Positions 2,442-61,455 of a DNA stretch of 64,000 bases are shown in pieces. A program made the position numbers and the translations under genes. Source of the stretch: Thysanoteuthis rhombus (taxonomy: Eukaryota; Mollusca; Cephalopoda; Oegopsida; Thysanoteuthidae); NCBI GenBank assembly GCA_963457665.1, contig OY735233.1:45091392-45155391 (forward strand), given 5' to 3'. The notes beneath the pieces are model-generated. The model worked only from the letters and a program-made list of their open reading frames with translations, had not been told where the DNA came from and ran no database searches. The number at the start of each line of letters is the position of its first letter. Position 1 is the stretch's first letter.

Positions 2442-4753
2442 CCAGATGCCACATAGGCCAAGAACTATTGGAATAGCATATGGGGGCACCCCAAAAAACA
2501 CAACGTAACACCGCAATGGTTAGGAAACATGAGAAAAGAACTAGAAGATATAGACAAGGGAGAACCAATAGTACTGGATGAAACCACATCGAAACATACT
2601 CTTAGGAAAGTAGCCAAGTGGAAAGCACCGGGTCCCGACGGGATCCATGGGTATTGGTTCCAAAAATTCACCACGTTACACGGCAGACTCACTCACCTAC
2701 TCCAGAATTGTCTAAATGAAGGCAAAGCACCAGAATGGATGAATAAAGGCAGAACCACCCTCATCCAAAAAGACCCAGAAAAGGGGAACATAGCAAGCAA
2801 CTATAGACCAATCACGTGCTTACCACTTATGTGGAAAATCCTGACCGGGCAAATAGCAGAGAGAATATACATGTCAATGGATAGAAGGGGACTACTACCA
2901 GAAGAACAGAAAGGGTGCAGGATAGGAACCAAAGGGGCAAACGATTTACTCTATATAGACCAGATGATCTTAAGAGAAGTGAGGAAAAGGAGAAAGAATA
3001 TCGCAATGGGATGGATAGATTACAAAAAAGCGTACGATATGATTCCACATAGCTGGATACTCGAATGCCTTTGAATGTTCAAAATTAGCGAACCGGTGGT
3101 TAAATTCATTGGTAATTCGATGGAAGACTGGAAAGTAGATATGACAGCCGCAGGGGACAAACTAGCAGAGGTAGGGATAAAAAGGGGAATCTTCCAAGGA
3201 GACTCGTTGTCCCCACTATTATTTGTTCTAACAATGATACCGCTCAACAGAATCCTGAAAAACAGCAAAGGATACCACTACTCTAAAACAAAAGGAAAGG
3301 TTAACCACCTAATGTACATGGACGATATAAAATTGTTCGCAAAAAACAGGGGAGAGCTTGAGACTCTGTTCAACGAAGTAAGGGAATATAGTGATGATAT
3401 AGGAATGGAGTTTGGAATAGAAAAATGTGCTATCATGGTGATGCACAAAGGAAGGCTTTCAATGACTGAAGGAATTGAACTCCCGAACAACAGCAAGATT
3501 AGGGCATTGACCGCACAAGACCGATACAAATACCTAGGTGTCCTTGAATGTGACACGATAAAACGGGAAGAGATGAAGGAGAAAATAAAGAGAGAATACC
3601 TCAGAAGGATAAGGAAAATATTAGAAACCAAATTAAACAGCAGAAATCTAATAAAAGGAATGAACACCTGGGCTGTGTCAGTAGTTAGATATACAGGACC
3701 ATTCCTAGGGTGGACAAAGGAAGAGCTCCAATCAATGGATAGGCAAACAAGGAAACTTATGACGATGCATAAAGCATTACACCCTAGAGATGATACAGAT
3801 AGACTATACGTTAAGAGAAAAGAGGGTGGCAGGGGGCTCATCAGCATAGAAGATTGTGTCCAGAGAGCTAAAGTAGTCCTAGAAATATATGTGCAAACAA
3901 ATAGTGAAAAAATCATAAAGAGTGCGAGAGATAGTGCAGCAAGCAATAAAGTAGAAAACAATGGAACAGTACAACAAACAAGAAAAGAAAGATGGGAAGG
4001 GAAAAAATTGTACGGCGAGTTTAAAAGACAGATACAACATGTAGCAGACGAAAAATCATAGACGTGGTTACGAAAGGGGAACCTTAAGAGAGAAACAGAA
4101 TTGCTCATCATGGCAGCCCAAAACAAAAGCATAAGGACAAACTACATAAAAGCAAAATCGACAGAACACAGACAAACAGCAAATGCCGCATGTGCGGTGA
4201 GAGAGATGAGACAGTAAACCACATAACTAGTGAATGTAGTCAACTCGCCCAGAAGGAGTATAAGCATAGACACGATAGAGTAGCAACGATGATACACTGG
4301 GAACTAAGCAAACAAATGGGATTCAACCATGTGGAAAAGTGGTATCAGCACAAGCCAGAGGCAGTTTTGGAGAATGACAAACACAAACTACTCTGGGACT
4401 TTGACATCCAAACTGACCACCTCATCAAAGCAAGAAGACCAGACTTAGTAATAGTAGACAAAAAAAAGGGAGGCCTGCCAAATAGTAGACGTTGCTGTGC
4501 CTGCAGACAATAGAGTAAAAAAGAAGGAGAGTGAAAAAAAGGAAAAATACCAGGACCTAGCAAGGGAGTTAAGGAAGATGTGGAACATGAAAGCCAGGGT
4601 AGTACCGGTCATAGTGGGTGCACTAGGAACTGTCCCCAAAACGCTGAGGGAGAGACTGGAGGAGATCGGGATTAGGGGAAGGATAGAGACCGTACAAACC
4701 ACAGCACTACCGGGAACTGCACGGATACTGAGGAAGGTACTAGAGATATAAGT
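2442..4753 (+). pseudogene. RLE LINE ORF remnant, copy 1 (RT, zinc knuckle, RLE)
   Basis: This encodes the single polyprotein of the element but is broken. In order: NYWNSIW near 2460; KAPGPDGIHGYW near 2624; SNYRPITCLPLMWKIL near 2800; RT motif A WIDYKKAYD near 3015; GIFQGDSLSPLLF near 3188; catalytic YMDD near 3315; KYLGVLE near 3530; zinc knuckle C-X2-C-X8-H-X4-C at about 4184-4237; and the RLE at about 4440-4510. Breaks, judged against copy 2: TAG near 2451, TGA at 3072-3074 where copy 2 has an Arg codon, TAG at 4059-4061 where copy 2 has Trp, one A lost near 4155, and one base gained in the A-run near 4460. It cannot make a working enzyme. Confidence 0.88.
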
Positions 4754-4796
4754 ACTGCAACGAATCGTAGCCCTGTCATGATATGCAAAAGAGAGA

Positions 4797-4997
4797 GGAG
4801 ACGTTAGCTGAAGACCCGAGGAGACTTATTGTCACTCAGCCCTCAGCGATAACCACTGGGCAACCGGTGTGAAACTGTAAATCGTAGAATTACTGCAACC
4901 TATGAGTACTAGGAGAGGAGGGCTGGAGACTTGAGGAGACTTGCTGTCACTCAAACTCCAGCGGTTACCACCAGGCAACTGGTGTGAGATTGTAAAT
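4797..4997 (+). promoter_or_regulatory. 3' UTR with duplicated ~82-bp module and GCAA-loop hairpins (copy 1)
   Basis: Two related modules lie in tandem, about 4797-4882 and 4917-4997. Each has a GAGGAGACTT-TGTCACTCA core flanked by short inverted repeats (CTGAAG/CTCAG-type in the first, CTGGAG/CTCCAG in the second). Each ends in a small perfect or wobble hairpin: CACTGG-GCAA-CCGGTG at 4854-4869 and CACCAG-GCAA-CTGGTG at 4969-4984. The loop is a GNRA tetraloop and the stem differs by compensatory changes. In RLE LINEs the 3' UTR RNA is what the protein binds for target-primed reverse transcription, so a recognition role is plausible (inference). Confidence 0.6.
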
Positions 4998-5003
4998 AAC
5001 AAC

Positions 5004-5045
<42 letters not shown>
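4998..5045 (+). repeat. (AAT)n tail between LINE copies 1 and 2
   Basis: A nearly pure AAT array. It is at once the 3' tail of copy 1 and the sequence in which copy 2 begins, so the two elements are joined head to tail. Confidence 0.95.
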
Positions 5046-5046
<1 letters not shown>

Positions 5047-6794
5047 TCGCAATGGGATGGATAGATTACAAAAAGGCATACGATATGATTCCACATAGCT
5101 GGATACTCGAATGCCTTAGAATGTTCAAAATTAGCGAACCGGTGGTTAAATTCATTGGTAATTCAATGAAAGACTGGAAAGTAGATTTGACAGCCGCAGG
5201 GGACAAACTAGCCGAGGTAGGGATAAAAAGGGGGATCTTCCAAGGAGACTCGTTGTCCCCACTATTATTTGTTCTAACAATGATACCGCTTAACAGAATC
5301 CTGAAAAACAGCAAAGGATACCACTTCTCTAAAACAAAAGGAAAGGTCAACCACTTAATGTACATGGACGATATTAAATTGTTTGCGAAAAACAGGGGAG
5401 AGCTTGAGACTCTGTTCAACGAAGTAAGGGAATATAGTGAGGACATAGGAATGGAGTTTGGGATAGAAAAATGCGCAATCATGGTGATGCACAAAGGAAG
5501 GCATTCAATGACTGAGGGAATTGAACTTCCGGACAACAACAAGATTAGGGCATTGACTGCACAAGACCGATACAAATACCTAGGTGTCCTTGAATGTGAC
5601 ACGATAAAACGGGAAGAGATGAAAGAGAAGATTAAGAGGGAATACCTTAGAAGGATAAGGAAAATATTAGAAACCAAATTAAATAGCAGAAATCTAATAA
5701 AAGGAATGAACACCTGGGCTGTGTCAGTAGTTAGGTATACAGGACCATTCCTAGGATGGACAAAGGAAGAGCTCCAATCAATGGATAGGCGAACAAGGAA
5801 ACTTATGACGATGCATAAAGCATTACACCCTAGGGATGATACAGATAGACTATACGTTAAGAGAAAAGAAAGTGGTAGGGGGCTCATCAGCATAGAAGAC
5901 AGTGTCCAGAGAGCTAAAGTAGTCCTAGATAGATATGTGCAAACAAATAGTGAAGAAATCATAAAGAGTGCGAGGGATAGTGCAACAAACAAAGTAGAAA
6001 GCAATGGAACGGTACAGCAAACTAGAAAAGAAAAGTGGGAAGGGAAAAAATTGTACGGCGAGTTTAAAAGACAGATAAAAGATATAGCAGACGAGAAATC
6101 ATGGACGTGGTTACGAAAGGGAAACCTTAAGAGAGAAACAGAATCGCTCATCATGGCAGCCCAAAACAAAAGCATAAGGACAAACTACATAAAAGCAAAA
6201 ATCGACAGAACTCAGACAAACAGCAAATGCCGCATGTGCGGTGAAAGAGAGGAGACAGTAAACCACATAACTAGTGAATGTAGTCAACTCGCCCAGAAGG
6301 AGTATAAGCATAGACACGATAGAGTAGCAACGATGATACACTGGGAACTAAGTAAACAAATGGGATTCAACCATGGGGAAAAGTGGTATCAGCACAAGCC
6401 AGAGGCAGTTTTGGAGAATGACAACCACAAACTACTGTGGGACTTTGACATCCAAACTGACCACCTCATCCAGGCAAGAAGGCCGGACTTAGTAATAGTA
6501 GACAAAAAAAGGAAGGCCTGCCAAATAATAGACGTTGCTGTGCCTGCAGACCATAGAGTAAAAAAGAAGGAGGGTGAAAAAAGGGAAAAATACCAGGACC
6601 TAGCAAGGGAGTTGAAGAAAATGTGGAACATGAAAACCAGGGTAGTACCGGTCATAGTGGGAGCACTAGGAACTGTCCCCAGAACGCTGAGGGAGAGACT
6701 GGAGGAGATCGGGATTAGGGGGAGGATAGAGACCGTACAGACCACAGCACTACTTGGAACTGCACGGGTACTGAGGAAGGTGCTAGAGATATAA
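5046..6794 (+). CDS. RLE LINE polyprotein, C-terminal ~582 residues, uninterrupted
   Basis: This is the 3' part of the reverse transcriptase/endonuclease polyprotein that would copy the element's RNA into DNA at a nicked target. It is open from the truncation point to TAA at 6792-6794. Visible parts in order: RT motif A WIDYKKAYD from 5058; GIFQGDSLSPLLF at about 5233; catalytic YMDD at 5361-5372; KYLGVLE; thumb region WAVSVVRYTGPF; zinc knuckle C-X2-C-X8-H-X4-C at 6228-6281; RLE signature PD at 6483-6488 with the next D at 6531-6533 (PD-X14-D), then VAVPAD. The N-terminal DNA-binding region and RT fingers are missing, so it is not autonomous. The reading frame also runs upstream through the AAT array as poly-Asn (to 4941), which I do not count. 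First in-element ATG is 5052. Confidence 0.85.
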
Positions 6795-7035
6795 GTACTG
6801 CAACGAATCGTAGCTCTGTCATGATATGCAAAAGAGAGAGGAGACGTTAGCTGAAGACCTGAGGAGACTTATTGTCACTCAGCCTTCAGCGATAACCACT
6901 GGGCAACCGGTGTGAAACTGTAAATCGCAGAATTACTGCGACCTATGAGTACTAGGAGAGGAGGGCTGGAGACTTGAGGAGACTTGCTGTCACTCAAACT
7001 CCAGCGGTTACCACCAGGCAACTGGTGTGAGATTC

Positions 7036-7037
7036 CA

Positions 7038-7072
<35 letters not shown>

Positions 7073-7081
7073 TAATAATAA
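7036..7081 (+). repeat. (AAT)n tail of LINE copy 2
   Basis: An AAT array with one G interruption. It follows GTGTGAGATTCCAAATAAT, equivalent to the copy 1 junction. Confidence 0.93.

Positions 7082-11482: not shown

Positions 11483-11484
<2 letters not shown>

Positions 11485-11537
<53 letters not shown>
11485..11537 (+). repeat. (AAT)n array upstream of LINE copy 3
   Basis: A pure AAT array that ends exactly where the truncated LINE copy 3 begins. No LINE 3' UTR precedes it here, so the array was either the target site or the remnant of an older element's tail. Confidence 0.93.
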
Positions 11538-11538
<1 letters not shown>

Positions 11539-12712
11539 TCTGTTCAACGAAGTAAGGGAATATAGTGAGGACATAGGAATGGAGTTTGGAATAGAAAAAT
11601 GCGCAATCATGGTGATGCACAAAGGAAGGCTTTCAATGACTGAGGGAATTGAACTCCCGGACAACAGCAATATTAGGGCATTGACCGCACAAGACCGATA
11701 CAAGTACCTAGGTGTCCTTGAATGTGACACGATAAAACGGGAAGAGATGAAGGAGAAAATAAAGAGAGAATACCTCAGAAGGATAAGGAAAATATTAGAA
11801 ACCAAATTAAACAGCAGAAATCTAATAAAAGGAATGAACACCTGGGCTGTGTCAGTAGTTAGGTATACAGGACCATTCCTAGGATGGACAAAGGAAGAGC
11901 TCCAATCAATGGATAGGCGAACAAGGAAACTTATGACGATGCATAAAGCATTACACCCTAGGGATGATACAGATAGACTATACATTAAGAGAAAAGAAGG
12001 TGGTAGGGGGCTCATCAGCATAGAAGATTGTGTCCAGAGAGCTAAAACAGTCCTAGAAAGGTATGTGCAAACAAATAGTCAAGAAATCATAAAGAGCGCG
12101 AGAGATAGTGCAACAAACAATAAAGTAGAAAACAATAGAACAGTACAGCAAGCAAGAAAAGAAAGATGGGAAGGGAAAAAATTGTACGGCGAGTTTAAAA
12201 GACAGATACAAGATATAGCAGACGAGAAATCATGGACGTGGTTACGAAAGGGGAACCTTAAGAGAGAAACAGAATTGCTCATCATGGCAGCCCAAAACAA
12301 AAGCATAAGGACAAACTACATAAAAACAAAAATCGACAGAACACAGACAAACAGCAAATGCCGCATGTGCGGTGAAAGAGATGAGACAGTAAACCACATA
12401 ACTAGTGAATGTAGTCAACTCGCCCAGAAGGAGTATAAGCATAGACACGATAGAGTAGCAACGATGATACACTGGGAACTAAGCAAACAAATGGGATTCA
12501 ACCATGTGGAAAAGTGGTATCAGCACAAACCAGAGGCAGTTTTGGAGAATGACAACCACAAACTACTGTGGGACTTTGACATCCAAACTGACCACCTCAT
12601 CCAGGCAAGAAGACTGGACTTGGTAATATTAGACAAAAAAAGGAAGGCCTGCCAAATAGTAGACGTTGCTGTACCTGTAGACCATAGAGTAAAACAGACC
12701 ACCATAGACTGA
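11538..12712 (+). pseudogene. RLE LINE ORF, C-terminal part lacking the end of the RLE
   Basis: Open from the truncation point to TGA at 12710-12712. It covers the RT thumb (KYLGVLE, WAVSVVRYTGPF, KLMTMHKALHP), the zinc knuckle C-X2-C-X8-H-X4-C (CRMCGERDETVNHITSEC, about 12359-12412) and most of the RLE including DVAVPVDHRV. Then about 180 bases present in copy 2 (about 6560-6735) are missing. The frame reads QTTID and stops. At the RLE first acidic site it has RLDLVILD where copy 2 has RPDLVIVD, so the proline of the PD motif is also changed. RT catalytic residues are absent because of the truncation. Confidence 0.85.
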
Positions 12713-13119
12713 AAAGACCACAGCACTGCTGGGGACCGCGCCCAATACTGAGGAAAGTGCTCGAAATATGAGATCTACGACCCCAGTTCTTCGCAGTGGC
12801 CCAACAGAGAAAAGAAATGAGGGGAGAGGAGGAAAAAGAAAGAAATAAAAAACAAACAACACACCACAAATGGTGGCTGAGGTACAAACCACAGCGCTGC
12901 TGTGATAGTTCAAGGAGATATGAGAGAAGGGCTGAAGACCAGAGGAGACTTACAGTAACTCAGCCCTCAGCGATAACCACCTGGCAACCGGTGTGAAACT
13001 GTAAACCACAGCGCTGCTGTGGACTGTGAGAGTGTAGAGGAGAGGGCTGGAGACCTGAGGGGACTTGCTATGCTATGACCACCAGGCAACTGATGTGAAA
13101 ATACATAAACAATAATAAC
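11538..13119 (+). mobile_element. RLE-type LINE copy 3, 5'-truncated with internal deletion
   Basis: It begins inside the RT after the YMDD motif (CTCTGTTCAACGAAG), again directly after (AAT)n. Its 3' UTR differs from copies 1 and 2: extra A-rich sequence at 12810-12880, a repeated GTACAAACCACAGCGCTGCTGTG-type segment split over two places, and a decayed AATAATAAC tail. It probably belongs to another subfamily. It joins directly to a copy of RLE LINE family 2. Confidence 0.85.
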
Positions 13120-15100
13120 TGTGGAAGTAATCCATGATGCTCTGTGGTAGACACAGAATGGAAATCGCCTGGAATGGTTGAAATCCCAAATTTCTGGCTA
13201 AACACACTTTCATCTGCCACCGTAAACTTGACAAAATCTCTGTCCAACGTCATCAACGCCCCACATGAAGCACCAGCGTGGTTAAGCAATGGCACCAAAG
13301 CCCCCTAAAACTATAGACCCATCACCTGCTTCACAACCACCTATAAACTAATCTCGGCAATATTATCGAATATGATGCACCCCCCTTTAAAACAATGATA
13401 TTTTCCCCCCGAGAACGAAAAGTTCTTATGGTTGTAAAGATCAACTTCTAATTGATAAGATGATACTCGAGAACCGTCGAACAAAAGGTCGTAATCCAAG
13501 TACAGCCTGGATAGATTACCATTGGGCGTTTGATAGTATACCATATAATTGGATACTAGAAGCCTTAGAAGTATATAAAACCGCACCACTTATGATTGAT
13601 TTCCCCAAACATAGCATGACATCATGGGGCATTAAGCTCCTCTCCAGCCACAATAAAGGTACCCCTGAATCCTGGAATATAGCCATTAAGTGTGGAATAT
13701 CCCAAGGAGATTCTCTTTCACCCCCCCCCCTTTTCAGTTTAGCCCCATCCCCCTTACAAGGGAACTCAACAACATAACCTATGGATATAAAACCTGAATG
13801 AAAAGAATAAACCACTTATTTTCCATGCATCATCTTTAACTCTACGCAAAGGATGACCCTGGGCTACGGCGGCAGCTGCACACTGTGAAGAGATTCAGTG
13901 ATATTGGAATGAAATTTGGCCACAGGCTAAGAAAACTGACATCAGCAAAATATACCCTCCACAACCATTCGAGAACCCAAACAAGAAGATACCTATGAAT
14001 ATTTCGGAATTAATGAAGGCAGTGGAATTCAATTTGCATACGTGAAAGAAAGAATAGAAAATGAGTTCTACAAAAGGGTTAGAGCTATTCTCGACACAGA
14101 ACTTGACTCAAAAAACCGCATCCAAGCCATCTAAACCTTAGCAATACTTATGGTACAGAATAGATTTAACAACATTAACTGGAACATAACTGACATACGC
14201 CGAATGGACGCAGAAACAAGGAAACTTTTCATCAACAACAGAATGCACCGCCCCAAAGCAGGCGTAGTTCGACTCTACCCCCTTTATAAAAGGAGGCAAT
14301 AGAGGCATGATTCAGTTACAACTGTCATACGAAACTGCAACCATTGGCCTACACGCTCACCTTCAGTCAAGTGACGAGTGAGCTAGCAGAAAGACTTCAC
14401 TCAGTTGTGAAGGAATCCAAGGCATTTCGAGATGAACTAAACATAACTGACACAAATCAACAAGCCCCTACACAAGCTGCAACTAAGATTGCAAGAAATG
14501 TAAAAACTACAGCCAAGCGACAAGGACTAACAATGAAGAAAGAAACCCCCTGCAAGGCTAATACCCACTTCGCACCCAAGGTGCTGATGTAGATAATACC
14601 AAAACCCATCAGTGGCTACGAAATTCAGGGTTAAAAGCCAGGAACAGAGGGCTTCATCTTTGCTGTCGAAGAACAGAGCCTTCCTACGAAGAACTACCGA
14701 ACACACGTTATCAGAACTGCAGGTTCTGTGACAGCACAGCTGAGGCTATTGACCACACCATGTTTGGATGTTCTTTTCTAGCCTCTATTGAATATAGACA
14801 GACACGATAGAGTGGAACCGTACATTCACTTGATAGCCTGTAAGCACTATGGTGCACCACACATATTACATTGGTATGGCCACCACCCAGAACCTTTAAC
14901 TGAAACAAGTTGTATGGTATTTCACAGTTTGCACGGATCGAACCATCAAAGCCAGCCGCTGAGACATAATTATTAAAAGCAGAAAGGAAAAGATATCCAT
15001 CAATAGATATGACCCTTCTATCAGACAAAAACATATCTGTAAGAGAGTTTGAAAAACTACGTACGAAAATCTGGAAATTGAGATCACGAAGATGGTGTCA
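13120..15100 (+). pseudogene. RLE LINE family 2 ORF remnant, copy A
   Basis: Pieces in several frames: RT motif A WIDYHWAFDSIPYNWI near 13508; CGISQGDSLSP near 13691-13720, followed by a run of ten C that shifts the frame; thumb-like sequence near 14040-14240; ELAERLHSVV at about 14380; zinc knuckle CRFCDSTAEAIDHTMFGC near 14718-14771; and FEKLRTKIW near 15050. The catalytic DD box region near 13830 is badly damaged. The nearest relative in the window is the copy at 59.3-61.5 kb. Confidence 0.75.
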
Positions 15101-18554: not shown

Positions 18555-18957
18555 GCCATTGCTGGGACCTATGCCTAAGACATTGAGAATTGAAGGAGAT
18601 GGATAAAGAGGGGGGGGGAGATTGAAACGATGTGGACCACTGCACTACTGTAGTCTGCACGGATACTGAGGAAATATTGGAAATATGAGACAACCTCCAG
18701 CCGTCAGCAACGGTCTAACAGCTAGAATAAAAGGAGACGTGTAAGTAAAGGTCGAAAATGTAGAGACAGTACAGACCACAGCATTGCTGTGATATGTGAG
18801 GACGAGAGGAAAGTTGGAAACCTGAAGATACTTACAGGCAACAGGTGTGAAACTACGAACTACAGCACTGCTGCTGACTGAGAGTCCTGAGAGGAGTGCT
18901 GGAGACTTTGGGAGACTTGTTGTCACTCAGCCTCCAGCATTGGCCACAATGAACGAC

Positions 18958-19012
<55 letters not shown>
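18555..19012 (+). mobile_element. RLE-type LINE (same family as copies 1-3), 3' end with (AAT)n tail
   Basis: It starts with a trace of the C-terminus (GGGACCTATGCCTAAGACAT, equivalent to the GTVPKTLR coding stretch of copy 1). It then has the GTACAGACCACAGC-type UTR blocks, GGAGACTTGTTGTCACTCAG, and an (AAT)n tail at 18957-19012. About 70-75 per cent similar to copies 1 and 2 by eye, so older. One of the two GCAA hairpins is reduced to GGCAACAGGTGTGA. Confidence 0.75.
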
Positions 19013-38094: not shown

Positions 38095-38575
38095 AAAATA
38101 CGATAGAGTAACAACAGTGATACACTGGGAACTGAGTAAACAAATGGGATTTAACCATACCAAAAAGTGATCACTAGCACAAACCGGTGACAACCCTGGA
38201 GAATGAAAATTACTTTTGGACTTTGACATCCAAACGGACCACCTCATCTAAGCGAGAAGACCGGACCTGGTGATGGTAGACAAGAAGAGGAAAACCTACC
38301 AAATAATAGACGTGGCTGTACTTGCAGACCATAGAGTAAAAAGGAAAGGGAGTGAAAATTGGAAAAATACCAAGATCTAGCAAGAGAACTGCAAAAGATA
38401 TAGAACATGAAAGTCAGGATAGTACCAGTAATGATAGGCGCACTTGGAACTGACTAAAGACACTTGATAAAAGGAAGGATTGAGACTGTTCAGACTACAC
38501 CACTGCTAGGACCTGTACGGATACTGAGGAAAGTGCTACGACCCTAAATGTTAGCAGTGACAAATGGAAATATGA
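38095..38575 (+). mobile_element. RLE-type LINE (family of copies 1-3), decayed C-terminal piece
   Basis: ATACACTGGGAACTGAGTAA matches the HWELSKQ codons. Then the DFDIQTDHLI stretch (GACTTTGACATCCAAACGGA), a stop at the next codons, CGGACCTGGTGATGGTAGAC for the RLE PD region, and AAAAATACCAAGATCTAGCA for KYQDLA, then GGTACTGAGGAAAGTGCT-type end. Several indels. Both ends are truncated and there is no (AAT)n tail. Confidence 0.8.
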
Positions 38576-59264: not shown

Positions 59265-61455
59265 TTGAAAGAGACTAAGAACAAATAGGAATATACAACC
59301 AGAATGGAAAGAAAAGACACAGAAGGCAATTGATTTCCTGAAGGGAGAAACATCTATAGTTGATGAGCTCTCTAAAGGAGTGAACATTAAAACCAAAGAT
59401 GCAGAAAGATCAAGAGGAAATATAAACTAACAATAGAAAAAGACTTACCTCCAATTGGAGAAATAATCAAACAGAAGATACAAATTAGAGCCCAAAGGGT
59501 AAGACAGTTTGAAAAAAATAATTAGATTTTACTGTCCAGATCTGGCGTTTAATATAGACGCCCAGGAATTCTACCGAGCGATGGGCAGGCAGCCAGCGGA
59601 GATTAAAGAACCACCTTTAATTGATGATGTAGGAAGATTTTGGGCAAACGTTTGGGGCAACAGTTAAACGTTCAACACAAATTTAGAGTGGCTTAGGAGT
59701 GAAGATGAAAGAATAAAAGGTAAAACCTTACAGAAATGGAGCTATATAACAATGGAAGAAGTTCATGATACTCCGTGGAAGACACACAAATGGACATCGC
59801 CTGGGATGGATAAAATCCCCAATTTATGTTTAAACACACTTTCATCAGCCCACGTGAATTTAACAAAAAAACTCCCCAACATCATAAACTTCTAACATGA
59901 AGCGCCAGCGTGATTAAGCAATGGTACCTCTTACTCAAAAGCTATGGAACAAAGGACCCCGAAAACCACAGGCCCATCACTTGCCTCACAACCACCTAGA
60001 AATTGGTCAATACTATCAAATAGGGTGTACTCTCAACTGGAAAACAACAATATATTTCTGCAAGAAGAAAGAGGCTGCGAAAGAAGTTCTTATGGGTGCG
60101 AAGAACAACTTCTAATTAATAAAATGATACCCGACAACTGTCAAGCTAAACGCTGTAATCTAAGTACAGTCATGATAGATTACCAAAAGGCATTCGACAG
60201 TGTGCTATACACTAACAACCTCAGAAATATATAAGATTGAACCAGCAATTATTGATTTCCTCAAACATAACCTGGCACTAAACTCTCCCTCAATAACAAT
60301 AAAGGTACTTCTGAATCCAGGAATATAGCCATTAACTGTGGAATCTTCCAAGGAATTCTCTATCATCCTTCTTTTTATTTTTAACCCTCATTCATCGTTC
60401 AAGTAAACTCAACTCTACCTATGGACATAAAACCGGTAACAAGAGAATAAACCACATGTTTTTGGACGATCTTAGATTCCAGGGAAGGTATGTCTCAGAG
60501 TTGAGGGGACTGTTGCAAATTGTTAACAGGTTCAGTTTTGATATTGGAATGAAATTTGATCTCAATAAGTGTGCAAAAGCCAGAAAGTGGTAGAGGAATG
60601 TTCCAGTTAGAATTGTTCCACAAAACTGAAACAATTGGCCAATACGCTCACCTGCAGGCAACTGACAAGTGGATGTTATCTCAGGTGAAAAACCACGAAA
60701 CGGCAAAAGGGTTCACATTTGTGAGGGAATCAAATGCATGGTCAATCATGACCTACATAAACCAACTAGTCTCTATAAAAGCTACAACAAAGGTCGCAAA
60801 ATAATGTAAAAACTACAGCCAAGTGACAAGGACTATCAATATTAAAAGAACAGTGGTAACAGAAATCCCTGCTCGGCCAATACCCACTTCACGCCCAAGA
60901 GGCTAATGTAGATAATACCAAAAACCCATTAGTGGCAACGAAGTTCATGATTAAAAGTTGAAACGAAGGACTTCATTCTTGCTGCCCAAGACCAGAGCCT
61001 TTCTATCAGGAACTTCCTAGCAGATATTATCAAAAGCGATGCTCACTCCAACTGTAGGTTCTGTGACAGCGCAACTGAGACTGTCAACCACCTGATATCT
61101 GGATGTTCTGTTCTAGCCCCCAATGAATATAGTTTTAGACGCGATGGAGTGGACCAGTACTTCCACTGGATTGTCTATAAGCTCTATGGCGCACCTCACA
61201 CTGTACATTGGTATGGACACCAATCAGACCCCGTACCTGGAACACAACATGTGACAATATTATGATATTTCCCAGTACACACGGATCGAACCATCAAAGC
61301 CAATCGTCCAGACATAATTATTAAAGGTAGAAAGGAAAAGAAGTACTTATTAATAGATACGACCATTCCACCAGACAAAAATATATTTGTAAAAGAGTTT
61401 GAAGAATTGTCCAAGTACAACAAACTGGAAATAAAGATTATTGATACAACCTGAG
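59265..61455 (+). pseudogene. RLE LINE family 2 ORF remnant, copy B
   Basis: Frame fragments: EEVHDTPWKTHKW and TSPGMDKIPN near 59755-59820; MIDYQKAFDSVLYTN (RT motif A) near 60170; NCGIFQGIL-type damage of the motif B region near 60336; HMFLDDLRF (catalytic box as FLDD) near 60455; thumb remnants; zinc knuckle CRFCDSATETVNHLISGC near 61050-61103; RLE signature RPDIIIKGRKEKKYLLIDTT near 61303-61362, again PD-X14-D. The C-terminal part from the zinc knuckle is well preserved despite a damaged RT. Confidence 0.8.

Follow-up and report, generated by a model that had tools for sequence, protein, structure and literature searches.

We found that the duplicated hairpin modules in the analyzed squid DNA form the 3' UTR of a non-LTR retrotransposon that encodes a restriction-like endonuclease and resides in (TAA)n, R4/Dong-like judging by protein domains and insertion target rather than by a tree of the reverse transcriptase (RT), and that the second of the two tandem units is the terminal unit at the TAA junction. 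It is likely, in our assessment, that this 3' UTR is a structured RNA tag that is read by the RT of the element itself to start target-primed reverse transcription (TPRT). A structured tag for the element's own protein had been proposed in the preliminary description; the type of element, the constraint on the UTR, the majority pairing, and the position of unit 2 at the TAA repeat agree with that proposal, although the covariation argument turned out to be weak. A compact two-hairpin 3' unit, present in thousands of copies and with a clear rule as to which unit meets the target, makes the proposal directly testable, and the doubled layout with lasting differences between the units raises the question of why one element would keep two tags.

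Four copies with the two-unit UTR are present in the window, i.e., the whole analyzed stretch of 64,000 nucleotides, all of them on the + strand: A (to 4997), B (5046-7040), C (11538-13118), and D, of which the decayed two-unit 3' UTR (18764-18957) was identified. The RT/endonuclease open reading frame (ORF) of copy A is broken (2529-4752, in pieces 2529-3074, 3075-4061, and beyond), and that of copy B is 5'-truncated and open to the stop codon (5046-6794), with RT, CCHC, and restriction-like endonuclease regions. The ORF upstream of the UTR matched RVT_1 (PF00078) with an E-value of 3.6e-23, and zf-RVT remained below its cut-off. In a phmmer comparison to R2 retrotransposon proteins of known structure, the element protein was aligned to 9nl2 (E = 4e-17), mainly in the RT; the CCHC and endonuclease region formed a second aligned domain with C..C..H..C, weak when taken alone (i-Evalue 1.4), and the endonuclease alignment placed RPDLVIVD..IIDVAV over KPDLIFVK..VVDVTV. 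The R4/Dong-like label is used because an R2-like RT/endonuclease is combined with a TAA target, and Dong elements are reported to insert into (TAA)n in an ostracod and in most insects, molluscs, and cnidarians; an R2-like RT, a CCHC motif, a restriction-like endonuclease, and a TAA microsatellite target are the features shared with the R4/Dong clade (PMC7998251). An AlphaFold model of the copy B protein, computed from the single sequence, had a mean pLDDT of 34 and was discarded. In the viral collection, the protein search yielded six stretches that matched a pattern, none of them a relative, and the single match of the pattern search (L001; 11.7 bits, E = 0.027 in 3.9 kb) was judged to be due to chance; the search of bacterial and archaeal contigs yielded 11 stretches with a pattern match, with no relative among them.

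The 5'-truncated ORF part of copy C (11538-12697) is 95.6% identical to copy B, and its UTR is only ~76% identical, so copy C is apparently chimeric. The identity switch lies near 12697-12717, beside a local duplication of ~20 bp, and could be the result of template switching during reverse transcription or of a deletion between tandem copies.

The two units of copy A form a direct repeat (4796-4882 and 4911-4997; 77% identity, spacing 115 bp); thus, the duplicated module of the preliminary description is real, but its length is 87 nt and not ~82 bp. Each unit consists of hairpin H2, a 6-nt linker, and hairpin H3 (a 6-bp stem with a GCAA loop), in this order, and an extra hairpin, H1, stands ahead of unit 2. 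The architecture of H2 is 7+5+3 bp, with an outer stem of the GCTGAAG..CTTCAGC type, inner CTGAG/CTCAG and GAC/GTC stems, and a 5-nt loop; the commonest linkers are GAUAAC in unit 1 and GGUUAC or UGUGAC in unit 2. In copy A, unit 1 includes H2 at 4807-4847 (with two non-standard pairs) and H3 at 4854-4869 (CACTGG-GCAA-CCGGTG), followed by H1 at 4882-4898 (one pair broken), and by H2 at 4922-4962 and H3 at 4969-4984 (CACCAG-GCAA-CTGGTG) of unit 2. The corresponding hairpins of copy B are located at 6850-6890 and 6897-6912 (H2 and H3 of unit 1), 6925-6941 (H1, TCGCAG-AATTA-CTGCGA), and 6965-7005 and 7012-7027 (H2 and H3 of unit 2). In copy C, H2 and H3 of unit 1 (12929-13000) have some broken pairs, H1 (13006-13022) is CCACAG/CTGTGG, and unit 2 (13044-13102) is missing the right arm of H2. 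The GCAA hairpins of copy A had been described beforehand with exact coordinates and base changes, i.e., pair 5 is G-C in unit 1 versus A-T in unit 2 and pair 4 is T-G versus C-G, and their recurrence in copy B is confirmed. The pattern CCACYRGGCAACYGGTGTGA, derived from the two H3 hairpins of copy A, was matched with up to three mismatches at six positions of the window (4853, 4968, 6896, 7011, 12977, and 13079), compared to a mean of 0.00 in 100 shuffles; a scan of the window at the Rfam gathering threshold returned 0 matches.

TAA arrays flank the copies at the 3' ends of A, B, and D and at the 5' sides of B and C (4995-5046 between A and B, 7038-7081 after B, 11484-11537 before C, and 18958-19011 after D, all +), and only a short AATAATAA is found at the 3' end of copy C. 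H3 of unit 2 ends ~10 nt before the TAA array in copies A and B. The host genome (2.73 Gb) contains 28,512 exact matches to the H3 pattern CCACNNGGCAACNGGTGTGA and 0 matches to its reversed control, with 12,110 exact tails of unit 1 and 15,161 of unit 2. Using nhmmer on 110 fetched loci, we detected 301 modules that form 131 pairs, 29 single modules, two triples, and one quadruple. It should be noted that the loci were chosen for their resemblance to whole-UTR queries (40 were scored out of 2047, 5902, 1508, and 4747 candidates), a selection that favors two-unit copies; the genome-wide count of the unit-1 pattern is independent of it. Downstream of two-module clusters with 60 nt of following sequence, (TAA)3 was found in 79 of 110 cases, genome-overlapping loci being kept in, versus 147 of 5000 random 60-mers, and in 68 of these 79 TAA-flanked clusters the repeat started no more than 5 nt after the cluster. 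When the fetched modules were typed by unit (after removal of identical stretches and of modules with <40 nt downstream, and with four modules left untyped), a TAA repeat was present within 40 nt downstream of 84/129 modules of unit 2 and 0/120 modules of unit 1; genome-wide, one exact unit-1 tail out of 12,110 meets (AAT)4 within 8 nt. Since TAA follows unit 2 but not unit 1, unit 2 is the terminal unit at the TAA junction. Clusters of three or four modules were observed at loci L045, L060, and L069, for example unit1-unit1-unit2 in L060, and may reflect either unit duplication or back-to-back copies.

Under the preferred interpretation, the UTR RNA would fold in the cell into two tandem units (H2, short linker, and H3, with H1 before unit 2), and the RT/endonuclease would bind the folded UTR as a self-recognition tag. 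The enzyme would then nick a TAA repeat, and cDNA synthesis would be primed on the AAUAAU end, ~10 nt after H3 of unit 2; the bound part would be unit 2, with or without unit 1. The tag might also be bipartite, the two units being functionally different and both needed: unit 2 would set the priming end at TAA, and unit 1 would provide another docking site, used for instance by a second RT molecule or in second-strand steps. Unit 1 is distinct from unit 2 in both subfamilies (described below) and is almost never found at the TAA junction, and we put the bipartite arrangement forward only tentatively, as a possibility that is more doubtful than probable.

Tails of stringent-type L2 LINEs (UnaL2) contain a single stem-loop. 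The squid element resembles these LINEs in having a stem-loop in the 3' tail, which in the zebrafish L2 LINEs (ZfL2) is reported to be bound by the ORF2 protein of the same element (PMC4176376), but it differs from them in clade and in endonuclease. The R2 protein is reported to start TPRT only on RNA with the R2 3' UTR, the core of which, P1-J1/2-P2 (two stems and a short linker), is bound by NTE-1 and the thumb, a 43-nt tag being sufficient (PMC10499050). The likeness to R2 is in a pair of stems connected by a short single-stranded segment near the 3' end and in a 3' RNA tag that is read by the RT in R2, whereas two tandem units and a natural GCAA tetraloop distinguish the squid element. Moreover, the R2 linker has conserved adenosines at positions 2 and 3, and these are absent from GAUAAC, GGUUAC, and UGUGAC; therefore, the squid H2-linker-H3 arrangement is not the R2 core. 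The tag principle is already known from R2 and L2 LINEs, and the conserved two-unit layout was not found described in the open-licence literature searched; the same literature yielded no description of a doubled structured 3' UTR in R4/Dong elements and no account of how retrotransposons of this type recognize their own RNA.

Constraint on the UTR is suggested by the comparison of copies A and B, in which 7 of 245 UTR positions differ (2.9%), compared to 55 of 580 third codon positions (9.5%; Fisher p = 0.0007) and 23 of 183 fourfold sites (p = 0.0002 against the UTR), and the UTR is similar in its degree of conservation to first and second codon positions (33/1160). The ORF differences are 52 synonymous and 36 nonsynonymous, the neutral expectation being 25% synonymous. 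Conversion or template switching between these neighboring copies could also be a source of the low UTR divergence.

For the census of pairing, we used adjacent module pairs 95-130 nt apart with fewer than 20 gaps each, 125 of them distinct by sequence, of which 106 belong to two large subfamilies (50 copies with a mean divergence of 7.6% and 56 copies with 17.2%). In these two clusters, the majority state was a standard pair for all 84 H2/H3 pairs (two subfamilies, two units, and 21 pairs in each). The same pair was found in all four sets at 17 of the 21 positions; three pairs were changed on both sides (7/39, 12/35, and 54/61, of which 54/61 takes A-U, G-U, and G-C states), and 53/62 was changed on one side. 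GCAA was the commonest loop in all four sets (49/50, 48/50, 40/56, and 45/56). The two subfamilies differ in H1 of unit 2, which reads CCACAG/CTGTGG in one and TCG(T/C)AG/CTGCGA in the other, two pairs being changed on both sides; as read from the sequence, unit 1 of the AB subfamily has not retained H1. Within copy B, H2 and H3 of the two units differ at seven positions, with three double changes and no broken pairs (joint p ~0.0009 under randomly placed transitions, an uncorrected value from one of 11 pairwise tests); one pair is broken when H1 is included. The other comparisons were less clean: B1 versus C1 had five differences and four broken pairs, B2 versus A1 had three double changes but two broken pairs, B2 versus C1 had three double changes but four broken pairs, and B2 versus D2 had no double changes and one broken pair.

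Covariation across many copies, which the preliminary description had itself named as the test of its claim, was not detected by tree-aware methods. The best 150 of the 179 model matches contained 97 distinct rows, and an R-scape-like analysis of these rows, with a null that treats sites as independent on a tree (60 replicates), gave no significant structure pair (best E = 0.21 among 21 pairs); the ten top-scoring column pairs were all non-structural, none of them significant. Among 186 distinct modules (from the 242 of 301 with no more than six gaps), 89.7% of cells were paired compared to 79.8 +/- 3.5 under the null (0/300 as high), an excess that is not taken as proof because this null, in which changes are placed by branch length, may overload internal branches; in the same test, double changes (6 versus 8.4 expected) and double plus restoring changes (P = 0.99) were not in excess, and breaks were not fewer. 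Stem changes that kept or broke a pair numbered 46 and 59 on internal branches and 143 and 243 on terminal branches (p = 0.22), and the per-site change in stems equaled or exceeded that at unpaired sites. A shuffle control, which ignores relatedness and is therefore ranked below the tree-aware tests, gave mixed results in three alignments: the covariation score was matched by 0, 5, and 0 of 500 shuffles, the number of pairs changed on both sides by 59, 30, and 16, and the number of further pair types by 491, 313, and 27.

The expectation that stems are held in young copies was not supported either: the fraction of paired cells was 0.965 and 0.985 at the mean divergence of 7.6%, and 0.884 and 0.890 at 17.2%. 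With pair-breaking changes making up 63% of the stem changes on terminal branches, this loss in inserted copies is, by rough arithmetic, about that of neutral decay from an intact source. Most variation among copies is decay after insertion, and compensatory change rests on about five pairs, each probably representing one event; together, the tree-aware nulls and the neutral pair decay imply that constraint can be seen only when the sources of subfamilies and of units are compared, in few events.

These results bear on the view that it is the primary sequence of the UTR that is conserved (e.g., for base-specific RT contacts, polyadenylation, or export) and that the hairpins are incidental. The lack of significant covariation and the similar rates of change in stems and unpaired sites are in line with this view, as is an amplified mismatch variant: in the 150-row alignment, the most frequent unit-1 row (13 identical rows versus 9) is the variant CCCGAG, whose H2 contains a C-A mismatch. 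An H3 pair in the A-C state accounts for 273 of the 28,512 exact genome-wide matches. Conversely, the majority pairing is kept despite differences at 4/21 H2/H3 pairs, three of them on both sides, none of the seven stem differences between the copy B units breaks a pair, and both of these units fold to the same H2+H3, which makes conservation for primary sequence alone an unlikely explanation compared to a structured tag.

Each unit of copy B is predicted to fold alone to H2+H3. The whole-UTR fold of copy B had a z-score of -4.88 (-4.5 in a second run), and the values were ordinary for copies A (-1.8), C (-0.7), and D (-1.3); of 320 background windows, which include the UTR itself, 11, 40, 114, and 59 were as low as B, A, C, and D, respectively. 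From an eight-row alignment, RNAalifold recovered nothing beyond H1 and the five outermost pairs of H2. Antisense strands folded about as well as sense strands, which would also be expected if the compensatory appearance arose at the DNA level, by CpG decay on both arms, template switching between inverted-repeat arms, or conversion between copies. Reading of the sequence indicates that some double changes involve CpG sites, the changed sites being CpG in one subfamily, and neighboring copies are present at several of the fetched loci. However, the H2 changes 7/39 and 12/35 are, by the same reading, not at CpG, each subfamily retains the difference between the two units, and G-U pairs are kept on the RNA-sense strand (53/62 as U-G in unit 1 of the AB subfamily and 54/61 as G-U in unit 1 of the C type), where the other strand has mismatches; a DNA-level origin is thus quite improbable. 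That the units serve RNA stability, translation, or packaging, and not recognition by the RT, is the least credible alternative, given that unit 2 lies within a few nucleotides of the TAA junction in the great majority of TAA-flanked clusters (68/79) and that the R2 and L2 precedents place RT recognition there.

Several other repeats were observed in the window. A diverged fragment at 38096-38538, near a (TA)n array, is related to copies A-D (~65% protein identity). Another dispersed repeat lies just upstream of copy A (2205-2301) and matches nine places in the window with 73-85% identity, at about 431, 1642, 17106, 28992, 42418, 44611, 47590, 49315, and 62643.

A second, older R4/Dong-like family is represented at ~13115-15084 and 59746-61438 by copies with ~70-71% identity, and it is distantly related to the family of copies A-D (the best long stretch reaches 38% protein identity). 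The module model found no match in this family. Three of its six fetched genome copies (L112-L117) end in TAA arrays (L113, L114, and L117), and several copies have a single hairpin of the AAGTTTC/GAAACTT type near the 3' end (L116 was left out of this comparison), the window copy being folded otherwise. Because this family combines TAA ends with a different, single hairpin and has no module, structured ends next to TAA may be a general feature, with the doubled module being peculiar to the family of copies A-D.
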